This document shows, piece after piece, positions 8,158-64,000 of a stretch of 64,000 bases of DNA. The translations under genes were made by a program, and so were the position numbers. The stretch covers positions 14,386,501 through 14,450,500 of the forward strand of contig OY540822.1 in NCBI GenBank assembly GCA_961205875.1, written 5' to 3'. Numbering within the stretch: position 1 is the stretch's first letter; each line of letters starts with the position of its first letter. The DNA is from Sialis fuliginosa. Its lineage: Eukaryota; Arthropoda; Insecta; Megaloptera; Sialidae. Below the pieces are notes generated by a model. The model did not search any database. It saw nothing but the letters and a program-made list of their open reading frames with translations, and was not told the DNA's origin.

Positions 8158-8390
8158 CTCTACTATCGGGTACGTTGAGAACTTATCAACAGGCTGGTTG
8201 TGATGAAGAAATGGTTATATTAAATTGTCCGATCGGAACTCATGTCATAATAGAATTTGCTCAATATGGAAAGGCCGACCCTGGTACTTTGTGCCCAGCG
8301 GAAAAGGAAAAAACAGCACGAAGATCCGGATATCTGCCCGTGTCTTTTCAACACACCAATACATCTTGTTTTTGGCCCAGTGCGATGCAG
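8158..8390 (+). CDS. eva-1: eva-1-like exon 1 of those visible: first two-thirds of SUEL domain 1
   Basis: Starts after the acceptor tttttttcag at 8148-8157 and enters in phase 1 (two bases complete the previous codon). It reads LLSGTLRTYQQAGCDEE..., with NCPIG, AQYG, LCPAE and SCFWPSAMQ, the conserved spine of an EVA-1 first SUEL domain, including four of its eight cysteines. HTNTS contains an N-glycosylation sequon. It ends in phase 0 at MQ. The donor CAG|gttggt is weak compared with the gtaagt/gtgagt donors of the later exons, although it opens the longest intron. An apparent upstream extension in frame (reading through the pyrimidine tract) has no ATG and is intron. Confidence 0.93.
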
Positions 8391-43400: not shown

Positions 43401-46400
43401 TACCTACATCGTGTGCTTGGAACAAGCTTGGGAAATCATTGCAATTAATGTTTTAGTAAACACTCAAGCTATTCAAAAGCTATTGCATTTAGCTTTTGTA
43501 GTGGGCTTGCAATTATTAATTCAGTTTATGTTACCTTTTTAATTTAATTGTAAACAAAATAAGGGAAACTCGACTTACAGTACATTTCATGAAATTAGAA
43601 AATCATACATGTGATTTTAATTGCATATAAAATATATGTATGTACTTATATTGCCTCAATTTTTGTCAAGGTTGGGGGGGGGGAGATAATCTATTGATGT
43701 TTTCTTCAATATTTTTCTAATTATAATTTTAGCGTAAATCATCATTTTAACGTAAAGAGTGTTTTGTCGCTCCCCCTCCTTTGCATATTATTCGATTATT
43801 TAAATCTTATACAAAAAGAAATTTTACAAACATTAATATTAATATTTTTTTCGTCGTCCGTGGCTTCTCTCTTTGAATACAAAGTGATTTCAAATATAAA
43901 AAGTTAAATATTCCTGCTGGCAACCGTATTATATTGAATATATTTTTCGCCAACTTTTGATGAAATTATACCTTTATTTTAAAATCTTGTCATACTTCAA
44001 AATTGAAGTTTAAAGTATAAACGTAAATAAAATCAAATTTAACTTCCTGTTTTTCACAGATCGTATACAGGGTTGGTGGGAAGTAAAACCCCCCCTTAAT
44101 TTGTTTACCTAAATATTAATTAGGTGTAAAAAGAATTCAATCGAATTTCTAAGTTATAAAAAAGTTATTTTTTATATCATTATATATATATTATTATCTA
44201 TATATATTATTTTTATATTGATATTGATTACTAGCGATTTTTCCGCGGCTTCGCCCGCGTTATATACATTTTTATGACCATATATGGACACTTATACAAA
44301 AATGTCATTTTTGAGTTATGAATGCAGTTTCAAGTTTTGCTCATATTAAATAAAAGTTGCAAATATAAGTAATATTAACAAGTTTTTTTGTTAGTAATAA
44401 CTAATGTTATATTTAGTATAATAAAGAGAGTATATTTTATGACACAGATAAAATAATTTTATGATTTTGTTATTAAAACATTAATTTATCCTAATGATGC
44501 TATAATCTAGTTTATTCATCAGATGTTACTTCTAGGGTCTAGATAATTATATAATCACTCATAATACTTGTCTAAATTTAAGCTGTTATTAATATTAAAT
44601 TATTGAATTCTCTGATAAAAAATCTTCGTATAAAATTAATTTTAAGTTCTTCACTAACCAAAAATAACATTAGTATACAATAATCGATAATATAAAATAT
44701 AATTTAAAAGAACAACTAAGAAAACAATAAGAATATAGGGTCATTAAATTTTCAAAGATGAAATTTTCAGTGAAGTTTAAAGTTTGAAGTTTGAAAATTT
44801 GTCATCGCGATCATGTAAAAATATTAGTTTTCATGAATTTCCACAGACACTTATGGAAGTTATCATCGAAAAACCTTGGGCATAACTTAGAAGTCGATGC
44901 TATCTTGAATATTAAAATAATAACAGTGTGGTATCAACATACATACATAAATTGACAACATATTTTAACTCTTATTATTTTCTTATAAAATATTTCAATA
45001 TCTACCAGCTTTTCTTCCTTCTTTCAACAATTTAAATGTTAATGACTATTAAATACATACATGAAAATTTTAATAACTATATTCAACGCCGGTTTTTTCA
45101 AATAAAAATTATTGCATTGTATTTTTTTCGTTTTGAATTATCTTTCAAACTCGACCGAATATAAATGCATTTGTAATAGCGAGAGATTCATTTGTTTTTT
45201 GATTGGCTAGCAACGTGCTATTTTTCTCATAAAATACAGCATAAACTTGAACTTTATGTATAGAAGATATAATAGAAAATAGGATGTGGTACATGGAGAG
45301 TATGTATAACATCTCTACATACGTAAATTTGTTCCTTTGCTTTGGACTTGAGGGAAAATTTCACGCTTACATAATATACTATTTATTATTATTATTTGTA
45401 ATAACATCTCAATTAATAGAAAATATTGTTTTCACCTCGATTTGCAAATATTGCATTAAGTTTTTATTATAATTCTTAAATGCTATTGTATAAGTCCCGT
45501 ACAAACATATTATTTTTTAATCAGAAGTCTCATAACCGAAATAGTTCTAACTAGGAAAAAAGTAATCTCTTTTTGTACTCCCCCCTCTGTGGTGATGCCC
45601 TAGGCAGATAGTAAAAATTGTTTCAACTCTCCAAATTTTGGTTTCAAAATACCAAAAACTTCCGAAATCACCTTTTGTTGACGAATGTTGTAAAACTTAT
45701 AGCCCTTAATGAAAAATAACGTGATAATTGTCAATCCCTTTGAGAAGCATTACCCTTAGGTTAAGGACCACTGTTCTAAATGATAAAGCACAATAACAGA
45801 CTACACTAACAATATTTAGTATTCTTTGTTGCAGAGTGTGGTAGATGTTTGCCAAAATAAACAACACTGTAAGTTTCATCCTTCGACGAAGACCTTCATG
45901 GGGGACCCTTGCCCAGGTATGAGAAAATATGTGGAGGTTGCCTACAAATGTCGACCATGTAAGTACCACCTTACGTTTTTTTTTATAAATAACAATTAAT
46001 TTATTAAATCGATCTTCAAATTGATATTTGTATTGCATGTATCTGAAACAATATTGAATTCCCTATGTAGTGTAGCTATAAGCATTGATTTTTAACAAGT
46101 ATTCCACGAAATAATGCAAATTCTAATAGAAAGAAACGACTGTTTTTAAAATACAATAAGGTTTCTTTTTACGCGGATTTGAAGTTACGTGGTGTGATTT
46201 TCATGCAAATTCAAGGCGAGTGAGGTATCTAATAAAAGCTGACAAAACGAGAAATTTAAATACGTAAAGGTTTTGTTATTATTAAAATGTTCGTTTAACA
46301 AGATTTCAAAAAATTATCATGAAAAAATATAAAAAAATTAAATAAATAAAATTGAAAAACAAACGTATTTTATTTTAAGTTTTACATCAATTTTCTATAC

Positions 46401-49400
46401 GATTTTCGATCTATTTTATGCAATGTCTTTTTTAAGCGATGTGGAACGTTTCTACCGCGTTAAAAGAGACCTTCTGTATATGAATTTAGACATGTCAATT
46501 AAGGACGTTTATTGGTAATAGAATGTTACACATTTTGATCTTGAAAATAAAAATAAAATGCACAAGGGTCTAGAAATGTAATGTGTACTAATGGCATCTA
46601 TTATTTTCCATAGATGAGTACATACAGAAAGTAGTGTGTGAAAATGATGTGATACAACTCAAGTGCGATCCATATTTCCGAATAGCCGTGCATTCTGCCA
46701 GTTATGGAAGGACTAAGTACGAAAGTGTATATTGCCCGCAACCGCAAGGAGTTGCTGAAGAAAGTGAGTATAATTTCTACATTACACTTCCAAAGATCTG
46801 TTCACTGTATACAGGTGATTACAAAGTAAGCAACGTTGATTCTACAACTTAATTAAGGGGTTACACCATAGATATAGAGAATGGACCACGCATCTGACTC
46901 GAGCAGAGTCGTGTCAAAAGAAAGAGATGGAAACAGGTTTGGAATATACTTGTCCTTTTTTTAAACAGGAGTGTAACTATTTCATTAAGTATAAAAAAAT
47001 TTTATTAAAAGAAAAACAATTATTGATTTCTAAATAATATAAGTTCCGAATTTTTGACCCAATTTTAATATCTTGTTCTTCCGTTTTCGTAGCATCGTAT
47101 ATTTAAAATTTTGTTAAGTAAATCTTGTATGTGCTGTTTGTAAGTGCAATCCACCTCATCATTTTGTAGCAACCACATAAGAATTGATTTAAAACTATTT
47201 TTTATTAATATATATTTAATATTTTTGGTAGCAAAAATGTTATTTTCCCGGAATATCCATTCATAATTTTCAATTGATGTTTTTTTTTAAATTTCCTCGA
47301 TGAAATATGAACCATTATAGTATGTTTATTGTTTATATTATTTACTTTTCTAATAAAAAACTTATTGCACAAAAATCACAAGATAGATATACAAAAATAT
47401 ATCGAACAGAAATACTACCCTGAACTATAGTAAGCTACCAATCAGATTCTTAGAAAAAGAGATAGATATAATCCAAACTACATTGCATCTCTCTCACTTT
47501 TTGAACAGATGTTACAACATTGTGTTAATACAGAATGCACTGTCCATTCTCTATGTCTATGGGTTACACTACTCTGAGATTTTCAGAAAATTAATTATTT
47601 TTTTGTTTTATTGTGTACAAAGTAGCATAGGCTGCCAAATTTCATTAATATCTATTCAGTGGTTTAGCCGTGAAAAGGTAACAGACAGAGTTTCTTTCGC
47701 ATTTATAATATTAATATTAATAGCATGGATCTGACAAGATAATTTTGATAATTCGATATTTTTCAATTCTAATTTATATGAGTTGAACTGAAATACTGCA
47801 ATATAGTATAATTTTTATAAATAAAAATGCTCTAACCTTTTTTGTTGTGCAGCGAACCGATTATTAATTTTTTTTTAATTCACATGTATTACATTTAATT
47901 ATATTTTGTATCTATATAAAAAATTACACATCTCGTACATGATAAATTATTTTATAGTCAGATCTCTCTTTGATAAAAAATTCTACGAAAATAAATAATT
48001 TAAAAATTATCAAACCTTTTAGCATTATTAAAATTCTATTTTAACTAATAGTTTTTACTCAATAGGTACTCTAAACTCAATTCATTTTCAAATTAAGCCA
48101 ATAATAATGATGAAATGTAAAATGACAAAAATTAAAACACGAAGAGCAAAAATACATACGTGAACGTTTTGATCAGATTAAATAGTAAAAAACGCTACCC
48201 AATTTTGAAAATCATTGTCAGTGCAAATCAATTTAAACTACCGACACAATAATATAATTAACCCACTTTTATTTGAAATATAATTTTGTCCATAGCTGTA
48301 ACTGCCCTATTACTTTAGTATTTATATAGGTAATTAAATTTTTTAAATTCAATAGGTAAATACTTTTTAATTACATTTAAAATTAACTACATCAAAAATA
48401 CTGTTTAAATATTATTAAATGTATTCGATTATTATATTTGAAATTAAATTAAAATGTCGGAATCTCCCCCCACAAAATATTATACTAGCGTGTTACCCGG
48501 GGAGATAAATTTAATCTGTAATAAACATTGTTTTACTCGAAAATACCTCTCCGACAAAATATGCATATATTATACACCTAAATCTTCCTCGTGAAACACC
48601 CTCTCCATTTGTGAAAACCGGAATAAAATCCGTTCAGTAGTTACTGAGAAAATCGTGCACAGGCAAACAGACAGACGCAGTGAGGGGCTTTATTTTAATT
48701 TATGTATAGATGTATAGATTTTATATTTAAAATCAGACGTTCTTCTTCTCGAATATAATTTAATGCCTCCATCCCTCAACCCTTAAATATAGTAGCATAA
48801 AAAAGATAAGGTAATATCGATAGGTTTTTGTACATATAGTCGGCCGTAACCTTTTCCCGGCTAAACCGCTGAACCGATTTTGATGAAATTTGGCAGGGAG
48901 ATAGCTTGCATCTTGAGGAAGGACATATGCTAATTGATTAGATAAAAAAATACAAATTCCACGCGGACGAAGTCGCGAGTTAACAGTCAAAAATTCGTTT
49001 AAAATTCAGGTAATTATTTTGTGCAAAAACGCTCGGACACTTCGATTAGTATTTTTAGTTGCGGATTTTTGACATAAGAAAATTGTCTCAAGAAGAACAT
49101 ATACAGTCATTATTGATTTTTTTAAATGGAATATCCTATATATTATGCCATTTTTGAATTGTACGGTATATTCTGAACACTTGTAAAACATACTATATTT
49201 CTAAAATCAGCGGTTTTCGGAATAATGATGTTTGAAAATTGACATTTTGAAATACACACAAGTCAAATAAAATGTTTAAATTGAACAAATACACCTTGAA
49301 CTTTTTTTTAAAGCCAACAAAAACAACCTGGTACAATTCAAAAATGGTATAATATATAGGGTGTTCCAATCAATGATGACTGTATATGTTCTTCTTGAGA

Positions 49401-52400
49401 CAACCTGTATACAATTTTCTTATGCCAAAAAATGCACAACTAAAAATACTAATCGAAGTGTCCGAGCGTTTTTGCACAAAATAATTACTTATAATTTATT
49501 ATTATATTTTCTATAATAAAATAGACGTAGTTCTAATATACGTTAATTACGGGGCGAGTAAAATTCTGAATACATCCCTGCACAGAATACATATCCCACA
49601 ATCTATCGTACAAAATGGTTGAAACGCATCATCTAAATATAATTGAATAACAAACCCACCCCCAAACGGTGTTGACTTTGTTATTTGTGTGTCGCAGCCT
49701 GTTTGGTGAGTTACGCAACGGAAGCTGTGATGCATGTATGTCACGGAAAGCGACACTGCACCCTGGCGGCAGACGCGGCAACTTTCGGGAACCCGTGTCG
49801 ACCGGCATCTAGGATGTACCTAAAAGTCGTCTACACTTGCAGTAAGTACTTATATTATTCATATTACATATAAACTCAATTTGGACATTTGAAATGTACA
49901 GGTATTTCCTACCTTTACGAGTGAACTGTCACATGTTCGTAAATCGCGAAATAATTAAGCAATTAAATTAAAAGAAAATTCTTCTTCAATCAGAATTTGC
50001 TCTTATTTTGGACACGAAAATGGAAGTAAAAATAATGTTTTAATCGGTTTAGTTATGCGCGAAAAACATAGGCATGAGATTTATTCGTTTAAATTTACAT
50101 AAATTGAACATTTTTTCTAGTCCCTCGACATATCCTGAAGGATACATTCAACATCCAGTTAGAAGAAGATGAAATCGAAACGACTGCAACAATCCATGAT
50201 ATGGAAGCGGGAATAGAACAAAGTACGTCTACCGACAACTTGAAGAAATTAGTAGAACCGCCGATCTACTTACATCCTGACAATTCAACGGGAGATGCCC
50301 CTCTTGTAACCAGCACGGGAACGCCCTCTCACAGAAAAACAAAGAATAAATTTACTCCCCCTGGTGAGTACACAACAATTAAATCACAGTTTTTATGTTT
50401 GCTTTATTACGCCTTAAAAACACTTTATCTTTGATACCGAAAGGAAAAAACACTATTACGGTTTATAGCTGATGTTAGTGCCATTGTTGTTGTTTTTTTA
50501 GATAAACAATAGTTCATTTATTTAAGTACAAATATGACAACTGGTTTTTACTACCTTACATTTACATAATTAATTAATAGCGGATTTATATTTTTAAAGA
50601 GTTTTTTTCCTGCAATTAACTAATGTATTATTAAGAACATATTCTTTTTAAATATTTCTTAGAGAGAGCTCAGTTTTTTTCCCTTCAATCAACTAATGCA
50701 TCACTAAGACCATATTATTTTTAAATAATAATATTTTCTATTTGTATATTTTTTACAATTAGAGAGACTTTAGTTTTTACCTGCAATCAACTAATGTATT
50801 GTTAAGAACAGATTATTTTAAAAAATATTTTATATTTGTATATTTCTTAGAGAGAGCTCAGTTTTTTTTCCTTCAATCAACTAATGTATCACTAAGACGA
50901 TATTATTTTTTAATAATAATATTTTCTATTTGTATATTTCTTACAATTAGAGAGACTTTAGTTTTTACCTGCAATCAACCTATGTATTGTTAAGAACAGA
51001 TTATTTTTAAATAATATTTTATATTTGTATATTTCTTAGATAGAGTTCAATTTTTTTCCTGCAATCAACTAATGTATTATTAAGAACATATCATTTTTAA
51101 ATAATAATATTTTCTATTTGTATATTTCTTAGAGAGACTTTAGTTTTTAACTGCAATCAACTAATGTATTGTTAAGAACATATTATTTTTATATTTCTTA
51201 GAAAATATCATTTATAAAATTTTTTTAATATGTGCTTGACTAAATTTACCGGTAAGATTCTTAATAATGTTAAATCACAACTTCCAACTAAATTTTCCCT
51301 AATCAATCAATTAGTTTATAACTATTTCTTATTAGGCCTTATGACAGCAAAAGTTCCATACAAATCGGCTCAGTTGTTATCGTATCAAAAGGAAACAAAT
51401 AAACAGTTTTTTACGTTAGTTTTATTTTTTTCTTAAAAAGATTTTTATTTTCCCTTTTGAGTAGCGTATCATTGAAGTCCATGGTCAGATTCTGAAAATT
51501 TTAACGAAAAAAATCATCCAAAGTGTCCGAACATAGATAAAATATATATATTTTTGAAGTTGGTTAAAAATGGATTATATTTTATATATTTTTATTGTTT
51601 AATGAGTAAATTTTTAGCGAGAATAGTAAGGCCCATTTAAGCTTTCCTTACTACGCCCCTGGATTATAACTTCGGCACTTATGTGCTTGGATATCGCCAG
51701 TTGTCATCAACTACGTGTGCGACCTTTGTGGACAAATCTGTTACTCGCAAATTTTTAATTAGAATTAATACTGGACAGATGTTGACATTCTAAGTGAGCA
51801 GGTGTTCTACAACTTTAACTTGTATAGCTTCAACCACTGCTGGATCCATTACAAAAATACCACTAATTATTATATTAACAAAACTAAATGCAGACTTTCT
51901 CATACTTGGAAAAATGTGAAAAGATTCAAATAAATTAGAATTTCGCCGTGTGTATTTTAAAATTAGTAAATGTTTTCTATAATATACCGGTGGCGAAGCG
52001 TCCATGGAAGCAGGAGAAGCAGTGCTTCCCTTTCTTCATGGGTAAATTAATACAAATCTGTGTTTTCAGTTAATAAATAATTTTAAAAATATTATTAGAA
52101 TATTCGTCTTTATGCGCAAAAATAGCATTTAATATTAATTTACACGCTCAGTTATTAAACTATAATACCTCTACGCCTTATTTTCTTGTATTTTAGTCGA
52201 TATTTGTATGAAGAGTTGAGGTTCAAAGCAGGAAATTTCACCAAAAAATTTTGATTTTTTGATTTCGTTAAAAGTATGTTTATTGCATAGAAAACGACGT
52301 GAAAAGTTGTTTGGTTCAAACCGCAGGTCTGTATCTCAAACCGTTCTCGAGATATAGTCTCTCAAAGTTTTAGTTTTTTCAAATTTTTGGAGAAAAAAGG

Positions 52401-61400: not shown

Positions 61401-62882
61401 AAAGTTGATAACATATCGGACTCGTCTCGACCGAATCTAAGCCAATTTCGTTCCGAGACCGATGCTTGCAACCCTATACTCTTAATATGTTGATATTTTG
61501 TTTGTTTTTAGTGTAAGTTATGTGTGACTTGGGCCAAGAAATCCTTGTTTTATATATAACGAAAACAATATTTTCTTAGTACAGCGAACTCGGTTATTGC
61601 GGCATCGGATATAACGTCAAAATTACTTCTGATAAATTAATATGTTATTTTTTTCGGTTACGTCAGCCTAACTCGGCTAAATTGGTAATAGCGACATAAA
61701 ATCTGTGGTCACAAGAGTTCGACTATATAATATATTAATCCAACTAAAAAAACAATTATATAAAACAAGGATTTCTTGACCCAAGTAATTTTTTACTTGT
61801 GTAGTATAGTTTAACGTAGTTCTCGTGCTACAGTACTATCAAAAAGTTACGCTCATAATACCATAGTAAAGTATCGAAAATAATTGCGTTGCTACAGAGA
61901 ATTTTTGATCAAGTCTATACCCAAAGCCGTCTATACAGATTATTATAAACACAATCATACTATGAATATATTTTCTTTATTTTATGACTAAGCGCTTCGA
62001 CAGATTTTGATAAAAAACTACCAAACATTAAAGGGTTATTATTCTGATATGTGATAAAAAATTTTAAATGTTTGACCGTTTTGTTTTTGAAATATAATTA
62101 AATTTCAAATACGATACGGTCAATCATTTTGTTTTTGAAATACAAGGTCAATCATTTGGAATTTTTTATCACATATCAGAATAATAAACCTTTACTATTT
62201 GATAGTTTTTTATCAAAATCTGTCGAAGTTTTTAGTCATGAGAATGGACATAATACGAACTTGATATAGTGGATACGTATAAAAGTGGCAACTTTGATGA
62301 CAATTATCTCGAGTTTAAAACGGTCGATCTTTTTAAAAATTCACGTTTGGATAGATATCATTATTCTTTTTATGCCTTGATTTTTTTTAAATTCTATCGA
62401 AATGACGTTTGCACGAGAACTACCTTAAACATAAATGTAAGAAGGTACTAAATTTGTTATTTTATATTGCAGACAACAGCCCTGATTATCTATATTTGTA
62501 CATCATCGTGAGCGTCGCCTCGGGTATCTTAATCTGCACCATCCTAATCGTAGCTCAGGTTCTGGTACGCAGACACCGGCGACGGAAAGCTGCAAAAGAA
62601 GACAACAAGTACCAGAGTAGTTCTAACGAGCATTCGTTACCAAACGGTTTCGGGGATGATATTAGTTACATAAACGACGACATAGTCTTGTCGACCCCGC
62701 TTCCGGTGCCGGTCCACCAGGACAACATGCGTGGCGTCGTGTCTGTCGTAGGCTACAGCGATCATTCTCATTGCGGGTATCAGATGAGGCAACCGCCGAC
62801 TACGTTCCACACGATCCAGAGATCAGAAGACGCTCCAAGAGGGTTGGCTAGAGCGCCAGATAGCCACTACTATTACGGCTGA
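8158..62882 (+). CDS. eva-1: EVA-1/EVA1C-like SUEL-lectin transmembrane receptor; six visible exons, 5' end missing
   Basis: Join 8158-8390, 45820-45958, 46614-46763, 49698-49841, 50121-50363 and 62473-62882. The joined exons read open for 438 complete codons after a split first codon, close to the size of EVA1C proteins (about 440 residues in human, from memory). Order of parts: SUEL domain 1 (exons 1-2, eight Cys), SUEL domain 2 (exons 3-4, eight Cys), an acidic and Ser/Thr/Pro-rich stalk (exon 5), then a single membrane helix followed by a basic stop-transfer run RRHRRRK and a cytoplasmic tail (exon 6). This is the domain plan of EVA-1, a Slit co-receptor acting with Robo in C. elegans axon guidance. 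Ligand and role here are inferred from homology. Introns are 37,429, 655, 2,934, 279 and 12,109 bases; all are phase 1 except the first (phase 0). The signal-peptide exon is not seen. Confidence 0.92.
8525..8547. repeat. Poly-C tract
   Basis: A run of about ten C just downstream of the first visible exon, in strongly AT-rich sequence. Confidence 0.6.
9502..9535 (-). repeat. RTE-like 3' tip
   Basis: tcgcccgcgacttcgcttg is the reverse of the cgaagtcgcgggcg end motif and directly precedes the fold-back at 9574. Confidence 0.4.
9574..10466. mobile_element. hAT-like fold-back element, copy 1 (left end truncated)
   Basis: Two long inverted arms (about 9575-9930 and 9960-10315) centred near 9945 share ttagtcgatatttgtatga and caaaccgcaggtctgtatct. 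The right end reads cacgcctcgccactg, i.e. CAGTGGCGAGGCGTG inward, a hAT-type terminus. The outer left end seen in the 51988 copy is absent. The 62-codon mirror reading frames on both strands follow from the palindrome and are not genes. Confidence 0.75.
11460..11500 (-). repeat. RTE-like 3' tip
   Basis: ccacgcggcttcacccgcg is the reverse of the dispersed cgcgggtgaagccgcg motif. Confidence 0.4.
12725..12790 (+). repeat. pogo/Tigger-like terminal fragment
   Basis: TA-CAGTAAGACCTCGTTTATTA is the classic start of pogo-type terminal repeats behind a TA target. No matching right end was seen. Confidence 0.4.
14240..14418. mobile_element. GTACTGG-ended MITE, copy 2 (about 180 bases)
   Basis: Ends are aagtactggcgccagtcttgg and, inverted, aagtactggtaccagtcttgg. 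The right side also has ctcttaaagcggccaag, as in copy 1. The interior contains a hAT-like remnant (gggcgccaaacttgctaagg). Confidence 0.65.
15068..15175 (+). repeat. RTE/SINE-like repeat fragment with poly-C
   Basis: tctgtttgtctgtgcacga, taactactaaatgaatttca and cactaatggata match the family at 4815 and 58377. A C run at about 15076 precedes it. Confidence 0.55.
18791..18952. repeat. Fold-back repeat with a hammerhead-ribozyme-like core on the minus strand
   Basis: Outer arms 18791-18835 and 18909-18952 share gtagctaacttttcggg and cacgttgtcgtatttttaa. Inside, 18871-18888 and 18891-18908 form a second hairpin. On the minus strand CUGAAGA (18872-18866) is followed by a 5-bp stem GACUC/GAGUC, then GAAA and CGUC (to 18839), with ACUU/AAGU able to close stem I. 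This is the CUGANGA...GAAA...NUH hammerhead pattern reported from Penelope-like retroelements. Whether it cleaves is unknown. Confidence 0.55.
19725..19840 (+). repeat. RTE-like tail fragment
   Basis: ctgtctgtttgtttgttgc, cacggctaaaccgattttta, then gaaatttgaaggagata: the recurrent 3' tail wording. Confidence 0.5.
20751..20939 (-). other. Unrecognised 62-codon open frame, possible coding fossil
   Basis: It has an ATG start and an unusually protein-like composition (basic and acidic residues mixed, with WQLKNKIRVGQR and FMIWSFRKTMAEEIKRL). I do not recognise the family. No splice context or neighbouring exon supports a live gene, so a retrocopy or transposon fragment is as likely as chance. 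Confidence 0.2.
22444..22486 (-). repeat. GTACTGG-family MITE end
   Basis: gccaagactggtgccactac is the right-end form of the family; no left partner was found near it. Confidence 0.4.
23300..23316. repeat. Poly-C tract
   Basis: About 16 consecutive C, one of several long C or G runs in this AT-rich intron. Confidence 0.8.
23418..23790. mobile_element. Palindromic Tc1/mariner-like MITE, copy 1
   Basis: Arms of about 150 bases face each other: ccaagttgattaagccatag with gcattttgaaatgccgcc on the left and their reverse on the right. The right end is caacttggaatacactg followed by TA, the form expected of a mariner-type terminus. The left outer nine bases or so are lost. Confidence 0.75.
24842..25298. 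mobile_element. hAT-like fold-back element, copy 2 (internally deleted, both ends lost)
   Basis: From agcatttaatattaatttt it follows the 51988 copy, then jumps at about 24938 from the left arm into the right arm (ccgtcaactaaaatcaattc), so most of the left arm and the centre are missing. It stops before the right terminal repeat. Confidence 0.7.
25441..25770 (-). mobile_element. Probable SINE with (TAA)n tail
   Basis: Read on the minus strand, a G+C-richer body of about 280 bases ends in about 13 TAA/ATT repeats (25441-25481). Near its start are tctgtggtaaagtattctg and tttttgacgcccc, weakly like the A and B boxes of a tRNA-derived promoter. No reading frame explains the composition; a 73-codon frame inside it looks incidental. 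It could instead be the 3' end of a LINE with a TAA tail. Confidence 0.45.
25946..26085. repeat. Second fold-back repeat with a degenerate hammerhead-like core
   Basis: Arms atagatcttggcttctggcg and its approximate reverse at 26057-26084. On the minus strand CUGAAAA, a stem bounded by GUC...GAC, then GAAACGUU resembles the 18791 element, but one invariant core base differs. Confidence 0.4.
27155..27200 (+). repeat. hAT-like terminal fragment
   Basis: CAGTGGCGTTTTTAGGTTAC has the CAGTGGCG start of hAT ends; no partner found. Confidence 0.35.
27265..27300 (+). repeat. GTACTGG-family MITE end
   Basis: aaggtactggcactagtcttg is the left-end form of the family. Confidence 0.4.
28509..28771. mobile_element. 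pogo-like MITE, about 263 bases
   Basis: Left TA-CAGTAGTACCTCGCATTAA and right, inverted, CAGTGGGTCATTCTTC...ttattagcg before TA. Both ends have the pogo form and lie on TA dinucleotides; the repeats match only imperfectly. Confidence 0.5.
30030..30042. repeat. Poly-G tract
   Basis: A run of about 11 G in a short G-rich patch (gggcgagggaggg). Confidence 0.7.
30174..30225 (+). repeat. hAT-like terminal fragment
   Basis: CAGTGCTTCCCAAACTTTTT followed by accgcgacc is a common hAT end form. A reversed similar tip (gagaatcactg) lies at about 20600, too far to pair. Confidence 0.4.
31289..31690 (-). repeat. RTE-like non-autonomous element
   Basis: The left end actagctgttacccgcgact is the reversed 3' tip. 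The right part has gtttcattaatatcggttca and gataaggattcagacac, shared with 59035-59220. Confidence 0.55.
32157..34020. repeat. Tandem array, about ten 155-175-base units with a higher-order duplication
   Basis: Each unit carries variants of taacaataatcgttcaatat, actcgcatttttcctgaaat and accagacatatcatagtg. Unit starts recur near 32157, 32500, 32670, 32830, 33060, 33230, 33390, 33565, 33740 and 33893. A block of about 550 bases (32340-32890) is repeated almost exactly at 32895-33400, showing recent unequal duplication. A pogo-like tip, TA-CAGTAATCCCTCCTTTTA, sits in the first unit at 32171. Confidence 0.85.
34656..35087. mobile_element. Palindromic Tc1/mariner-like MITE, copy 2
   Basis: The core runs from attccaagttgattaagaca (34698) to caacttggaatatactg before TA (35088-35089). 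The left outer part is a different mariner-type tip, TA-CAGTGCCTTTCAAAAG, so two related elements may be joined. Confidence 0.7.
36335..36425 (+). repeat. Purine-rich G-run tract
   Basis: About 90 bases nearly free of pyrimidines, with G runs ggggggag, ggggag and ggggggagg. It is strongly strand-asymmetric within AT-rich intron. Confidence 0.6.
38131..38220. mobile_element. Tiny hairpin MITE, about 90 bases
   Basis: Arms atagtccagaaggtagcgtt(gca) and the reverse of atagtccgggaggtagcgtt(gca), 23 bases with two mismatches, enclose about 40 bases; TA lies at both ends. Confidence 0.55.
39010..39280. repeat. Two-unit tandem duplication with a poly-C tract
   Basis: Units at about 39010-39125 and 39162-39275 share ccgtaataatataaa-type and gtaagtaatagaaatataga sequence plus attgctgtag(a/t)agctaaac. 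The second unit gained a run of about 13 C at 39187. Confidence 0.75.
40190..40495. repeat. Dispersed repeat with 'accgacttcaaaaa' ends
   Basis: gaagtcggttttctttatta and accgacttcaaaaactg form a small inverted pair. gagtagcgtatcttcgaatt and ccatggtcagattt recur at 51458-51500. It resembles LINE tails common in insects; the 83-codon minus frame is incidental. Confidence 0.45.
41033..41393. mobile_element. Palindromic Tc1/mariner-like MITE, copy 3 (both ends present)
   Basis: TA-CAGTGTATTCCAAGTTGAT at the left and aaattggaatacactg-TA at the right give complete ends with a TA duplication. Arms of about 150 bases share gcattttgaaatgccgcc and attggtgca. Confidence 0.8.
41396..41520 (+). repeat. 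RTE/SINE-like head fragment
   Basis: gtctgtttgtctgtccgtta followed by gaaccacttatccgatttac matches the start of the element at 57500. It lies directly against the MITE at 41393. Confidence 0.55.
43674..43684. repeat. Poly-G tract
   Basis: A run of about ten G after gtcaaggtt. Confidence 0.7.
44232..44280 (-). repeat. RTE-like 3' tip
   Basis: actagcgatttttccgcggc then ttcgcccgcgtta is the reversed family tip. Confidence 0.5.
45820..45834 (+). promoter_or_regulatory. Tandem in-frame splice acceptors of exon 2
   Basis: The first acceptor ends at 45819 (aatatttag) and the second at 45834 (ttctttgttgcag). They are 15 bases apart, so both keep frame. The second has the better pyrimidine tract; the first keeps the conserved YSLLQ. 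Confidence 0.5.
45820..45958 (+). CDS. eva-1: eva-1-like exon 2: end of SUEL domain 1
   Basis: Reads YSLLQSVVDVCQNKQHCKF... to DPCPGMRKYVEVAYKCRP, giving the last four cysteines of SUEL domain 1 (DVCQ, HCKF, DPCP, YKCR). The start at 45820 after aatatttag was chosen because it restores the family sequence AMQ-YSLLQ-SVV. A second AG at 45833-45834, behind a better pyrimidine tract (ttctttgttgcag), would start the exon 15 bases later, still in frame, without YSLLQ. The exon ends in phase 1 at a consensus donor, ccat|gtaagt. An open frame of about 110 codons on the opposite strand is a shadow. Confidence 0.93.
45959..46613 (+). other. Intron of 655 bases with a pogo-like MITE
   Basis: Donor gtaagt, acceptor ttattttccatag. 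About half of it is occupied by the MITE at 46154-46476; the rest is plain AT-rich sequence. Confidence 0.9.
46154..46476. mobile_element. pogo-like MITE inside the 655-base intron
   Basis: TA-CAATAAGGTTTCTTTTTACG at the left and, inverted, CAGAAGGTCTCTTTTAACGC at the right, both against TA. The pair of ACGCGG ends about 320 bases apart supports one element. Confidence 0.6.
46614..46763 (+). CDS. eva-1: eva-1-like exon 3: linker and first half of SUEL domain 2
   Basis: Phase-1 entry completes a Tyr codon, giving CRP-YEYIQKVVCENDVIQLKC... and then SASYGRTKYESVYCPQPQGVAEE. CEN, LKC, SASYGR and YCPQPQG are hallmark positions of the second SUEL domain of EVA-1 proteins. It ends in phase 1 at the donor aaa|gtgagt. 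Confidence 0.94.
47625..47720 (-). repeat. RTE-like tail fragment
   Basis: gctgccaaatttcattaata, gtttagccgtgaaaaggtaa, acagacagag and cgcatttataatatta: the reversed form of the tail at 56222. Confidence 0.55.
48483..48715 (-). repeat. RTE/SINE-like repeat, about 230 bases
   Basis: From actagcgtgttacccgggga (reversed tip) through ataaaatccgttcagtagtt to cagacagacgcagtgagggg. It is the fullest copy of the family at 4815 and 58377. Confidence 0.6.
48825..48990 (+). repeat. RTE-like tail
   Basis: ggctaaaccgctgaaccgat, gaaatttggcagggagatag, ending ccacgcggacgaagtcgcg. It is complete to its 3' tip. Confidence 0.65.
49011..49487. mobile_element. Large-arm MITE, about 477 bases, 210 bases before exon 4
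   Basis: Near-identical inverted arms of about 145 bases (49011-49155 and 49345-49487) begin taattattttgtgcaaaaac and continue gctcggacacttcgattagt. The outermost TAATTA may include the target duplication. The superfamily is not recognised. Confidence 0.75.
49698..49841 (+). CDS. eva-1: eva-1-like exon 4: second half of SUEL domain 2
   Basis: With the split Thr codon it reads TCLVSYATEAVMHVCHGKRHC..., then FGNPCRPASRMYLKVVYTC. The cysteines TC, VCHG, RHC, NPC and YTC complete the eight-cysteine pattern of SUEL domain 2. It is markedly richer in G+C than its flanks, as are the other exons. Donor a|gtaagt, phase 1. Confidence 0.94.
49842..50120 (+). other. Short intron of 279 bases
   Basis: Donor gtaagt, acceptor cattttttctag. 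No repeat recognised. Confidence 0.9.
50121..50363 (+). CDS. eva-1: eva-1-like exon 5: extracellular stalk between SUEL domain 2 and the membrane
   Basis: Phase-1 entry gives IPRHILKDTF..., then an acidic stretch LEEDEIETTATIHDMEAG and a Ser/Thr/Pro-rich part with the glycosylation sequon NST in HPDNSTGD, ending KNKFTPP. It has no cysteine and no recognised fold, as expected for a flexible stalk. The exon ends in phase 1 at ctg|gtgagt. This is the least conserved visible part of the protein; its assignment rests on the uninterrupted frame and matching intron phases on both sides. Confidence 0.88.
50606..51215. repeat. Tandem array of seven units with alternating A/B types
   Basis: Units of about 75-100 bases each carry caatcaactaatgtat and a following ttcttagagaga-type stretch. 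Starts recur near 50613, 50686, 50782, 50872, 50971, 51060 and 51151. Early units alternate between tgcaatcaac and cttcaatcaac forms, implying a two-unit repeat of about 190 bases. Confidence 0.8.
51458..51575. repeat. Dispersed repeat, second copy of the 40190 family
   Basis: gagtagcgtatcattgaagt and ccatggtcagattctg match 40326-40360; it ends in gaagttggttaaaaa. Confidence 0.45.
51988..53071. mobile_element. hAT-like non-autonomous fold-back element, complete (1,084 bases)
   Basis: Termini CGGTGGCGAAGCGT and, inverted, CGGTGGCGGGGCGT (two mismatches in 14) are flanked by identical 8-base duplications TAATATAC (51980-51987 and 53072-53079). An 8-bp target duplication with a C(A/G)GTGGCG end is the hAT signature. 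Most of the interior is two long inverted arms (about 52167-52525 and 52558-52916). It has no transposase frame; the 62-codon mirror frames come from the palindrome. Confidence 0.9.
53444..53490 (+). repeat. GTACTGG-family MITE left end
   Basis: gtactgataccagtcttgga, then tcataccccaatgttgaact, closely matching the left side of the 14240 copy. No right end lies near. Confidence 0.5.
54338..54405. repeat. CG-rich hAT-like interior fragment
   Basis: gaccgcgggccgcacaaaag and gcgggccgcatgtagcccgc resemble the 'gcgggccgc' stretch near hAT ends; a related cccgcgggccactcctg lies at 16030. Confidence 0.35.
56000..56060 (+). repeat. hAT-like terminal fragment
   Basis: CCAGTGGTCTTCAAACTTTG followed by cacggaaccc is a common hAT end form. 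Confidence 0.4.
56222..56600 (+). repeat. RTE-like element with head and tail parts
   Basis: Opens catactaatagtataaatgc with tctctctgtctgtctgtt and cacggctgaaccgatcttaa, and ends gacgcgaacgaagttgcag, the family 3' tip. The middle is AT-rich and partly unrelated. Confidence 0.55.
57030..58322. mobile_element. hAT-like element ended CAGGGCTTCGAACC, about 1.3 kb, with nested insertion
   Basis: Left CAGGGCTTCGAACCGGAACT; right end inverted CAGGGCTTCGAACTGTTA. Both ends have repeated aaccgaaa/ggttcg words inside (to about 57090 and from about 58185). An RTE/SINE-like element (57500-57955) and a pogo-like tip (57269) sit inside. Flanks aattattt and attaatac are only loosely alike, so no clear target duplication. 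Confidence 0.65.
57500..57955 (+). mobile_element. RTE/SINE-like non-autonomous element nested in the 57030 element
   Basis: Begins tatataaagctcaacgtctc with tctgtctgtccgtta and gaaccacttatccgattta, passes gatcgcgccaagctgacata and ends gcgggcgaagccgcgcggg-ccctgctagtt. Both family ends are present, giving about 455 bases. Confidence 0.65.
58329..58369 (-). repeat. GTACTGG-family MITE right end
   Basis: accttgctcttaaagcggcc then ttggtaccagtacctta, directly beside the end of the 57030 element. Confidence 0.5.
58375..58505 (+). repeat. RTE/SINE-like repeat fragment
   Basis: aaacaaagtccctctccatg, the tctgtctgtctg run, tatgcacgattttctt and tatcccgcggtaacac match the family at 4815 and 48483. Confidence 0.6.
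59035..59220 (-). repeat. RTE-like tail fragment
   Basis: agtttcattaatatcggttc, gtgacaaggatttaggg and the acagacagacag run match 31540-31620. Confidence 0.55.
59890..60130. repeat. CpG-dense patch, probably a transposon remnant
   Basis: gagagcgtcgcgacgtcc and gagagcgtcgagacgcccgc recur about 130 bases apart, with taccgcg at both sides. CpG is frequent here and rare elsewhere in the intron. It has no open frame. A TIR element end is likelier than a promoter. Confidence 0.4.
61528..61785. mobile_element. Inverted-repeat element containing a pogo-like MITE
   Basis: Outer arms cttgggccaagaaatccttg... (61528-61557) and its reverse (61756-61785) enclose a second element starting at about 61582, CAGCGAACTCGGTTATTGCG, and ending near gagttcgacta at 61727. 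This is a nested pair. Confidence 0.6.
61984..62239. mobile_element. Large-arm MITE 230 bases before the membrane exon
   Basis: Arms of about 85-95 bases: atgactaagcgcttcgacag, attttgataaaaaactacca and ttattctgatatgtgataaa on the left, their reverse on the right (62152-62239). The loop has a short direct repeat of ttttgtttttgaaatac. Confidence 0.7.
62473..62882 (+). CDS. eva-1: eva-1-like last visible exon: transmembrane helix and cytoplasmic tail, to TGA
   Basis: Phase-1 entry completes an Asp codon and reads DNSPDYLYLYIIVSV..., a hydrophobic helix of about 23 residues ending near AQVLV, followed by the basic run RRHRRRK typical of the cytoplasmic side of a type I membrane protein. The tail continues for about 100 residues with NGFGDDISYINDD, a proline run PLPVPVHQDN and SHYYYG before TGA at 62880-62882. 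G+C is high throughout, in contrast to the intron. The TGA is followed by C and the frame stays open for 82 codons; see the next entry. Confidence 0.93.
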
Positions 62883-63131
62883 CCTCAAGTTACGTCCGTG
62901 TCTTTCGGGATGTCTCCCAACACCGGTCAAGTCCCGCCTCCGTCAGGTTTGGGATCCGGTACTGCGATGCACGTCCCGCCGGCCGGACCTGCTCTTCCCG
63001 GTAACAGGATGGTACAGGCGACAGTACCGGGACATGCCGGAACTATCCCACGTGCTGGGACTAGGTATGCCCCCGCTAACGACGCGGAGAACGTAAATAT
63101 TTGTTTGGGTAACCGTACATACTGTTTTTAA
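62883..63131 (+). CDS. eva-1: Candidate stop-codon read-through extension of the eva-1-like protein
   Basis: Directly after TGA-C the same frame runs 82 codons to TAA at 63129-63131. The peptide starts PQVTSVSFGMSPNTGQ and is rich in Gly, Pro, Ala and Thr, ending NVNICLGNRTYCF. High G+C, including at third positions, continues unbroken across the TGA and drops only near 63092, which suggests coding constraint rather than 3' UTR. The sequence aac|gtaaat at 63090-63098 is also a possible phase-0 donor, so an alternative 3' exon could exist beyond it. TGA-C is a known leaky context in insects, where read-through is common. Alternatives are a pseudo-stop from sequencing error, a recent stop mutation, or a GC-rich UTR. 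Confidence 0.5.
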   Translation, partial: PQVTSVSFGMSPNTGQVPPPSGLGSGTAMHVPPAGPALPGNRMVQATVPGHAGTIPRAGTRYAPANDAENVNICLGNRTYCF

Positions 63132-64000
63132 CAAATACTTAGATGAATATTACAATTACTACATGATTGTACGTTTTTTTGTGGGGTATCGACGGTCTTA
63201 ATGCAATAACATTCATTAGGTAATTCGGGTTGATATTTTTAAAAAATTGTGTACATGTGTAACATTATGCCATTTCTATTTAAATATGTGTGTTAGTGTA
63301 TAAATGAACTTCTAATATTACATATGTGTGCGATTACAACCTAACATCTTTATAGTAAATTTTATTTTTCATAACACTGGAGATATGTTTGAATTGTTGG
63401 AAGTAAAGACATTGTTAGTATGTTTATGAGTGTGTGAGTCTAGAATCGAGCTGGTGAATATAACACGATAGTTATTAGATATTACCTATGTTGGAAAAAA
63501 TTGCTTGTTGAACTGTTATTTTCATATATGTTTAGAGTTTATGTAAAACATGTCTGTATATATGCAAGCATAGGTGCCTGCATACATTATCCAAGGGTTA
63601 ACATAATGTATACTTATATATGTATATTCATATTTGCATCGCATGGACTGGTTATTAAAAAAATATTTTAATTGAAAATCCAGGAAGAATGAAGCACACC
63701 CACCCCCCCTTGTTCTTATTTGCGGACGCCTATGAATGCAGACGAGAGAGAGAGGAGCTAACACAATCAGATCGTTCGTTTTAATGTTTATCTCACCTTA
63801 ATACGTCTTTAGAAAAATATAACAAATCTAAACCGATGATATTTTTACATGACTACAGTTTTGTAACAAATAGGAAAAGTTTTGGGTAAGGATCATGTAT
63901 ACTGCATATACATATATAGTAAATTCTCGATAATCACCATCAAACATATAAATTAGATATGCATCGCGGGGTATTTTGTACCCGGAAAAGAAAAAAGATC
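63132..64000 (+). other. 3' UTR / downstream flank
   Basis: AT-rich with TG- and TATG-rich low-complexity sequence, a short C run near 63700 and a GAGA run near 63745. I see no AATAAA; an ATTAAA occurs at about 63653. No further gene is recognised. Confidence 0.5.

Follow-up and report, generated by a model that had tools for sequence, protein, structure and literature searches.

The locus and its gene

The window analyzed here, a stretch of 64,000 nucleotides of Sialis fuliginosa DNA, carries a gene for a receptor-like protein, whose parts are listed below.

8158..8390, + strand: exon A, N-terminal half of SUEL lectin domain 1 (acceptor ttttttcag, donor cag/gttggt; frame joins exon B; Pfam SUEL match on the joined exons)
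45835..45958, + strand: exon B, C-terminal half of SUEL domain 1 (own-genome SUEL match; splice sites and frame)
46614..46763, + strand: exon C, N-terminal half of SUEL domain 2 (acceptor ttccatag, donor aaa/gtgagt; frame)
49698..49841, + strand: exon D, C-terminal half of SUEL domain 2 (SUEL 28 bits alone, below the cut-off)
50121..50363, + strand: exon E, extracellular linker (acceptor ttctag, donor ctg/gtgagt)
62473..62879, + strand: first ORF of exon F, coding for the transmembrane segment and a cytoplasmic tail with the C-terminus ...DSHYYYG (acceptor tatattgcag/ACAACAG)
62880..62882, + strand: TGA with C as the next base, first stop codon and proposed read-through site (sequence and translation)
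62883..63131, + strand: proposed read-through extension, 82 codons plus TAA, with coding signal to approx. 63091 only (codon score, shuffles, G+C, frame contrast)
63132..64000, + strand: probable 3′ UTR, AT-rich (composition)

The joined exons matched Pfam SUEL in two stretches (108.8 bits), and the match at 45799-45951 alone reached 42.6 bits, above the cut-off, with one stop within the matched stretch. Exons E and F are joined in phase 1, the junction encoding ...FTPPDNSPDYLYLY... The FAM176 match of exon F (20.9 bits, E 3.3e-4; query started 22 codons upstream of the exon, inside the intron) lies below the curated cut-off of 31.5. The label "EVA-1-type" of the preliminary description is therefore retained in the weaker form "EVA-1-like": the two SUEL domains and the membrane-spanning segment suggest that the gene is probably an EVA-1 gene, but the FAM176 score falls short. 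Searches for a credible paralogue, and for a relative in viral and prokaryote collections, found none. The first canonical AATAAA signals of the continuing contig occur at 64193-64235, past the end of the window.

The reading frame downstream of the first stop codon

The ORF 62406-62882 terminates with the TGA at 62880-62882; C follows, and the frame continues without a stop for 82 codons until TAA at 63129-63131, exactly as had been described from the sequence. The stop context differs from the UGA-CUAG motif. At approx. 62% G+C the openness of this frame is, by itself, weak evidence: the first 69 post-TGA codons stayed open in 646 of 5000 dinucleotide shuffles, the chance of 69 open codons at that composition is 0.14, and frame +1 is likewise open over this stretch. 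A second ORF of at least 65 codons (69 codons examined) also follows 3 of 28 other long ORFs, even though the sequence at their ends is AT-rich.

Two further claims, that high G+C persists beyond the TGA, turning AT-rich only near 63092, and that the extension is rich in Gly, Pro and Ala, were borne out. The G+C content of 62883-63091 is 61.7%, and it is 28-31% in 90-nt windows from 63087 onward; 32 of the 82 extension residues are Gly, Pro or Ala. Within the surrounding 302.8 kb, only 12 of 302,591 windows of 209 nt have a G+C content of at least 61.7%, and all 12 form a single block (62875-63094). The stretches following the 28 other long ORFs have G+C values of 0.17-0.42. Base use differs between codon positions (chi-square 16.6, p 0.011), with most of the bias carried by first positions (G 39%, T 11%), so the earlier wording "non-random third positions" does not describe it best.

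The in-frame codon score of the first 69 codons of the extension is +10.2 bits, whereas the other two forward frames give −12.8 and −10.5 bits. None of 5000 dinucleotide shuffles (mean −6.9, SD 4.6) matched this value, and true coding pieces typically score at this level (mean 11.4, SD 8.0, n = 74). Scores as high are found in 2.7% of 148 wrong frames, 5.6% of 3000 noncoding pieces exceed it in frame, and one of the 28 other post-stop stretches surpasses it (11.5 bits, after 95428-96087, G+C 0.23). Since high scores occasionally arise in noncoding and post-stop stretches, the case stands on frame contrast and G+C jointly. Among 3000 random genomic pieces, a set still including coding sequence, 7 attained the frame contrast of 20.7 bits, as did 14 of 73 coding pieces. 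The final 12 codons (63093-63128) are AT-rich and contribute nothing, the entire extension scoring 8.6 bits.

From 62592 across the TGA to 63131, all 30-codon windows favor frame 0 over the other two frames, the signal weakening near 63091; the two windows before 62592 do not. The codon model is weak on exon F, as the known tail itself (62472-62879, 136 codons) scores only 1.1 bits, while one stop-bearing reverse frame scores 7.1; the last 40 codons before the TGA score 2.4 bits. Exon F keeps a coding-like signature across the TGA.

Possible explanations of the extended frame

The best single explanation is programmed read-through of UGA-C, to which we assign a probability of about 0.7 from the sequence. 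It is favored because frame 0 continues over the TGA, UGA-C is the favored context in insects, and neither splicing nor selenocysteine insertion finds support; the earlier read-through reading stands to this extent, with one serious competitor. The product would be a single-pass, EVA-1-like receptor carrying a pair of SUEL lectin domains, one transmembrane segment and a cytoplasmic tail. The majority of ribosomes would terminate at UGA, giving the short tail, and some would decode the leaky UGA-C, presumably via a near-cognate tRNA, and continue for 82 codons to UAA. The long form would thereby gain a Gly/Pro/Ala-rich, probably disordered cytoplasmic extension. Occasional decoding of UGA would therefore yield two receptor forms from one mRNA, which might differ in signaling. 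RNA folding 3′ of the TGA lends no convincing support: z lies between −1.1 and −1.9 for lengths of 80-120 nt, and the best tile of 80 nt there reaches −2.5, whereas a different tile of the exon has −3.4.

The main rival is a recent nonsense mutation, in which the TGA arose lately in the lineage (e.g. by C to T) and shortened the tail, leaving a former coding stretch that has not yet decayed. We consider this distinctly less probable than read-through, yet worth taking seriously: in one genome a fresh truncation would give the same codon statistics, and the extension is at least as coding-like as the preceding tail (10.2 bits over 69 codons vs 1.1 over 136, or 2.4 over the last 40). Passages of PMC5100048 show that this class was excluded or subtracted there. 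As a rough guide, that paper uses an estimate of 17 recent nonsense cases for D. melanogaster and compares 333 read-through candidates of the species, two figures with different footings. The UGA-C context, as expected under read-through, and the 82 codons lacking another in-frame stop also argue against it.

It is improbable that a mini-intron excises the TGA, or that the extension belongs to another isoform reaching a downstream exon. Weak donors (63065, 3.1 bits; 63093, 1.3) and acceptors (62947, 2.0; 63008, 2.3) do occur, as scored with an approximate matrix on which the acceptor of exon F reaches 5.9. However, the only frame-matched, positive-scoring pair with an acceptor in the extension (62524 to 62947) is very weak, and its use would cost the protein half of its membrane segment and all of the known tail; around the TGA, frame 0 remains the best. 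Between 63132 and 70000 the + strand holds no ORF of at least 45 codons with G+C above 0.28, a scan that shorter exons escape. Splicing out of the TGA had been named beforehand as a refuting outcome; splice-site scoring and the ORF scan to 70000 gave no credible mini-intron or downstream exon.

Still less probable is a G+C-rich start of a non-coding 3′ UTR that is open and coding-like by chance. Openness is ordinary at this G+C, and equally high scores occur in noncoding pieces and after one other stop, as given above; but no shuffle of the stretch itself attains its score, its frame contrast is rare among genomic pieces, and a G+C block of this level is unique in the 302.8 kb.

Long duplexes can draw ADAR, and the last intron holds a long inverted repeat (61984-62239; 94-nt arms, 89% complementary). 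Other recoding of the UGA, whether as selenocysteine or to UGG by A-to-I editing, is nevertheless very improbable: the hairpin sits in an intron at a distance of approx. 640 nt from the TGA and belongs to a set of at least 40 near-identical genomic copies, ADAR disfavors a G 5′ of the edited A (in UGA the A follows G), and an Rfam search of the 10 kb from 62801, with SECIS families included in Rfam, returned zero matches and no SECIS.

Comparison with known read-through in insects

The remaining claim, that TGA-C read-through is documented in insects, is supported by passages of PMC5100048 and PMC7826183, in which UGA-C is the favored read-through context. Candidates tend strongly to TGA with a 3′ C according to PMC5100048, in which no names of Hemiptera turned up; for the bumblebee, PMC7826183 lists 851 candidates and estimates that 306 or more are functional. 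Our search for a prior report of read-through in an EVA-1-like gene found none. The phenomenon is thus known and abundant in insects, and the EVA-1-like gene of S. fuliginosa is a new candidate for it.

Gene structure and identity of the product

The window corresponds to C14:14386501-14450500 of a genome whose mitochondrial contig carries a COX1 that reads as insect and, on visual comparison, as Hemiptera-like. Six coding exons were recognised on its + strand and linked by inspection of their splice sites and of the continuity of the frame; the start codon would lie in a further, first exon. The features are as follows:

8158-8390, + strand, coding exon
45835-45958, + strand, coding exon
46614-46763, + strand, coding exon
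49698-49841, + strand, coding exon
50121-50363, + strand, coding exon
62473 onward, + strand, terminal coding exon, with the in-frame TGA at 62880-62882
62883-63131, + strand, in-frame extension beyond the TGA

The joined product (433 residues) contains two tandem SUEL lectin domains (Pfam, 108.8 bits against a cut-off of 31.4), a region whose solved relatives include rhamnose-binding lectins and latrophilins. Downstream of these domains there are a single hydrophobic segment and a basic stretch. EVA-1/EVA1C proteins have two SUEL domains and one membrane segment, a layout that the product fits, and the gene is here called EVA-1-like. The FAM176 family matches weakly over the membrane segment: the terminal exon scores 20.9 bits (E 3.3e-4; the top of nine families, below the curated cut-off of 31.5) and the joined protein 16.2 bits, slightly lower than TMEM154 and EphA2_TM. 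The predicted product fits an EVA-1-like receptor, with FAM176 below its cut-off.

Within the genome (392 Mb, 20 contigs), searches for paralogues with the terminal exon and with the extension each returned the query itself as the sole match (E up to 1), and no relatives of the exon holding the first ORF or of the extension were found in the viral contigs and prokaryote genome contigs scanned. The second SUEL locus of the genome (L003 and L002, C14:15.77 Mb) is flanked at L003 by a translation whose motif and family we take to be those of latrophilin; this latrophilin-like appearance led to its rejection as EVA-1.

The last intron carries a hairpin element at 61984-62239 (256 bp, arms of 94 nt, 89% complementary), approximately 230 bp upstream of the terminal exon. 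All 40 places scored out of 551 first-look candidates, its own copy included, were 97-100% identical and nearly full length, which points to a recently active MITE-like family. A second inverted repeat (61527-61786; arms of 30 nt, 97% complementary, spacing 200 nt) is present in the same intron.

The reading frame beyond the stop codon

The preliminary description had proposed that the TGA is followed by C and that the same frame continues for 82 codons to a TAA, that the G+C content stays high beyond the stop, and that the extension encodes a Gly/Pro/Ala-rich tail. All of this was borne out. Sequence and translation place the end of the first ORF (...SHYYYG) at TGA 62880-62882, with 82 open codons before the TAA, and Gly, Pro and Ala together make up 39% of the extension, which ends in ...TYCF and in which no Pfam match was found. 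The local 302.8 kb has a G+C content of 28.4%, and only 12 of its 302,591 segments of 209 nt reach at least 61.7%; all of them fall at 62875-63094, the sole such block. The 207 nt downstream of 28 other long ORFs have G+C fractions of 0.17-0.42, a comparison in which not every ORF end is a true gene end, since some of these ORFs are probably internal exons entering introns.

The codon model was built from these 28 ORFs (at least 150 codons each; 7199 codons before trimming) in the 302.8 kb of contiguous sequence and adjusted for local base composition. For 62883-63091, the frame continued from the first ORF (frame 0) scored +10.2 bits, frames +1 and +2 scored -12.8 and -10.5 bits, and the top reverse frame, which contains two stops, reached 3.7 bits. 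None of 5000 dinucleotide shuffles (mean -6.9, SD 4.6) matched 10.2 bits, a value reached in leave-one-out tests by 58% of 74 true coding pieces of 69 codons (mean 11.4 bits) and by 2.7% of 148 wrong frames; it was also attained by 5.6% of 3000 noncoding pieces. The frame contrast of 20.7 bits was equalled by 14 of 73 coding pieces and by 7 of 3000 random pieces, the latter still including coding ones. Among the stretches that follow the 28 other long ORFs, one exceeds 10.2 bits in frame (11.5, after 95428-96087), and three open a second ORF of at least 65 codons; 646 of the 5000 shuffles of 62883-63091 likewise stayed open. Taken singly, the openness of the frame and the raw score do not settle the matter, so the case is made jointly by the score, the frame contrast and the G+C content.

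In sliding segments of 30 codons, frame 0 outscored the other two frames between 62592 and 63131, a stretch that spans the TGA; it did not do so in the two segments preceding 62592 or in 63087-63176. The segment with the TGA near its start scored 2.7 bits (other frames -2.7 and -3.8), and its neighbours 5.1 and 7.5 bits. The codon model performs poorly on the established coding part of the terminal exon (62472-62879), which gained just 1.1 bits in frame while one reverse frame with five stops gained 7.1. By the codon statistics of this single genome, a protein-coding signature is present past the stop in the in-frame second ORF, and ribosomes probably translate the extension as a continuation of the receptor frame, or did so until recently.

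Probable read-through and its alternatives

Programmed read-through at UGA-C is the best reading of the sequence data, with a probability that we put at about 0.7. The leaky stop context is present (UGA with C next, 62880-62883), and leaky termination there would yield two cytoplasmic tails from one mRNA. The main rival is a recent nonsense mutation in a longer reading frame, which would likewise account for an extension translated until recently; we consider it improbable, though it is the strongest of the alternatives.

Splicing that removes the stop is unlikely to explain the signature. With an approximate splice-site scoring matrix, the sole frame-matched, positive-scoring pair with an acceptor in the extension was 62524 to 62947, but it is very weak and its use would destroy the membrane segment. 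A search for a downstream exon found no + strand ORF of at least 45 codons with G+C above 0.28 in 63132-70000, a threshold that shorter exons could escape, and the earliest canonical AATAAA signals lie at 64193-64235. Decoding of the UGA as selenocysteine is also unlikely, as no Rfam match was found in the 10 kb from 62801, and editing of the stop codon is likewise an unlikely explanation.

The RNA 3' of the TGA gave z values of -1.1 to -1.9 for folds of 80-120 nt (35 tiles in all), and the best tile after the TGA (z -2.5) is not exceptional within the exon; this modest folding was not counted in favour of read-through. Conserved RNA structure, an optional feature, is predicted in 9% of Anopheles read-through candidates (PMC5100048), so that an unconvincing fold is not strong counter-evidence here.

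As a control within the same genome, we used three POU gene ends out of five POU matches, leaving out the minus-strand L032 and L033. The names vvl-like (L029) and acj6-like (L030) are our assumption.

POU gene ends used as a control (end; stop; in-frame continuation)
vvl-like (L029); TAG-C at 2125; second ORF of 24 codons
acj6-like (L030); TGA-C at 1978; 21 more codons, 70% G+C
third POU end; TGA-C; 12 more codons

Their in-frame codon scores (-1.0, -0.7 and 1.2 bits, that of the acj6-like end not being positive) give no clear signal, and frame 0 was the top in one of the three. Because the pieces are short, the control speaks neither for nor against read-through in Sialis fuliginosa.

If programmed read-through takes place, leaky termination lets an axon-guidance receptor gene yield two cytoplasmic tails, and 82 residues are lost from any annotation closed at the first stop codon. 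More speculatively, and with the odds against it, this could be an old and regulated UGA read-through in an insect Slit-receptor gene, giving neurons a second form of the receptor, in which the cytoplasmic tail would be long and disordered and its ...TYCF end might serve as an interaction motif, and tuning axon guidance at the level of translation.

Comparison with known systems

The literature searched, judged in part by title, contained no report of read-through of EVA-1 or EVA1C (supplementary gene lists lay outside the search), no report linking CG42402 with read-through, nothing relevant on eva-1 in Hymenoptera and no report of stop-codon read-through in Hemiptera; no Hemiptera species name was found in the main text of PMC5100048 either. 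Drosophila melanogaster CG34377 may be a SUEL-lectin gene, and its link to the EVA-1-like gene is a lead only. PMC4528330 describes two read-through sites in CG34377, independent of each other and located in alternative exons. In PMC8735623, CG42402 is among the Fos targets and Eva1c among the mouse orthologues of such targets; we infer that the two may correspond.

The extension is a new candidate of an already known phenomenon, insect stop-codon read-through. If real, it would bring a probable neuronal receptor into a group that is documented chiefly by statistics and has few functionally tested members. According to the reports cited, most insects tested show abundant read-through with a strong bias to TGA and a 3' C (PMC5100048), bumblebees have 851 candidates, at least 306 of them estimated to be functional (PMC7826183), and the extensions of flies show much disorder and low-complexity sequence and lack Pfam entities (PMC4999894). 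The present case resembles the pancrustacean candidates (Drosophila, Anopheles, bumblebees) in its UGA, the C next to it, the coding-like in-frame second ORF and, as in the fly, the Pfam-free extension, whereas those candidates are based on PhyloCSF and this one on the statistics of a single genome.

In Drosophila vvl/Dfr, UAG read-through produces a mostly disordered C-terminal extension that is functional in the fly (PMC8417969). The likeness lies in the C-terminal extension, mostly disordered there and Gly/Pro/Ala-rich here; the difference is UAG and a transcription factor there versus UGA and a receptor here. With EVA-1/EVA1C, a Slit receptor (PMC3767613, PMC5844316) and co-receptor with Robo, the product shares two SUEL domains and one hydrophobic segment flanked by basic residues, and it matches FAM176 weakly over the membrane segment. 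It differs in that FAM176 is under the cut-off and is slightly outscored on the joined protein by two further families of membrane segments, and in that there is a candidate second form of the tail.
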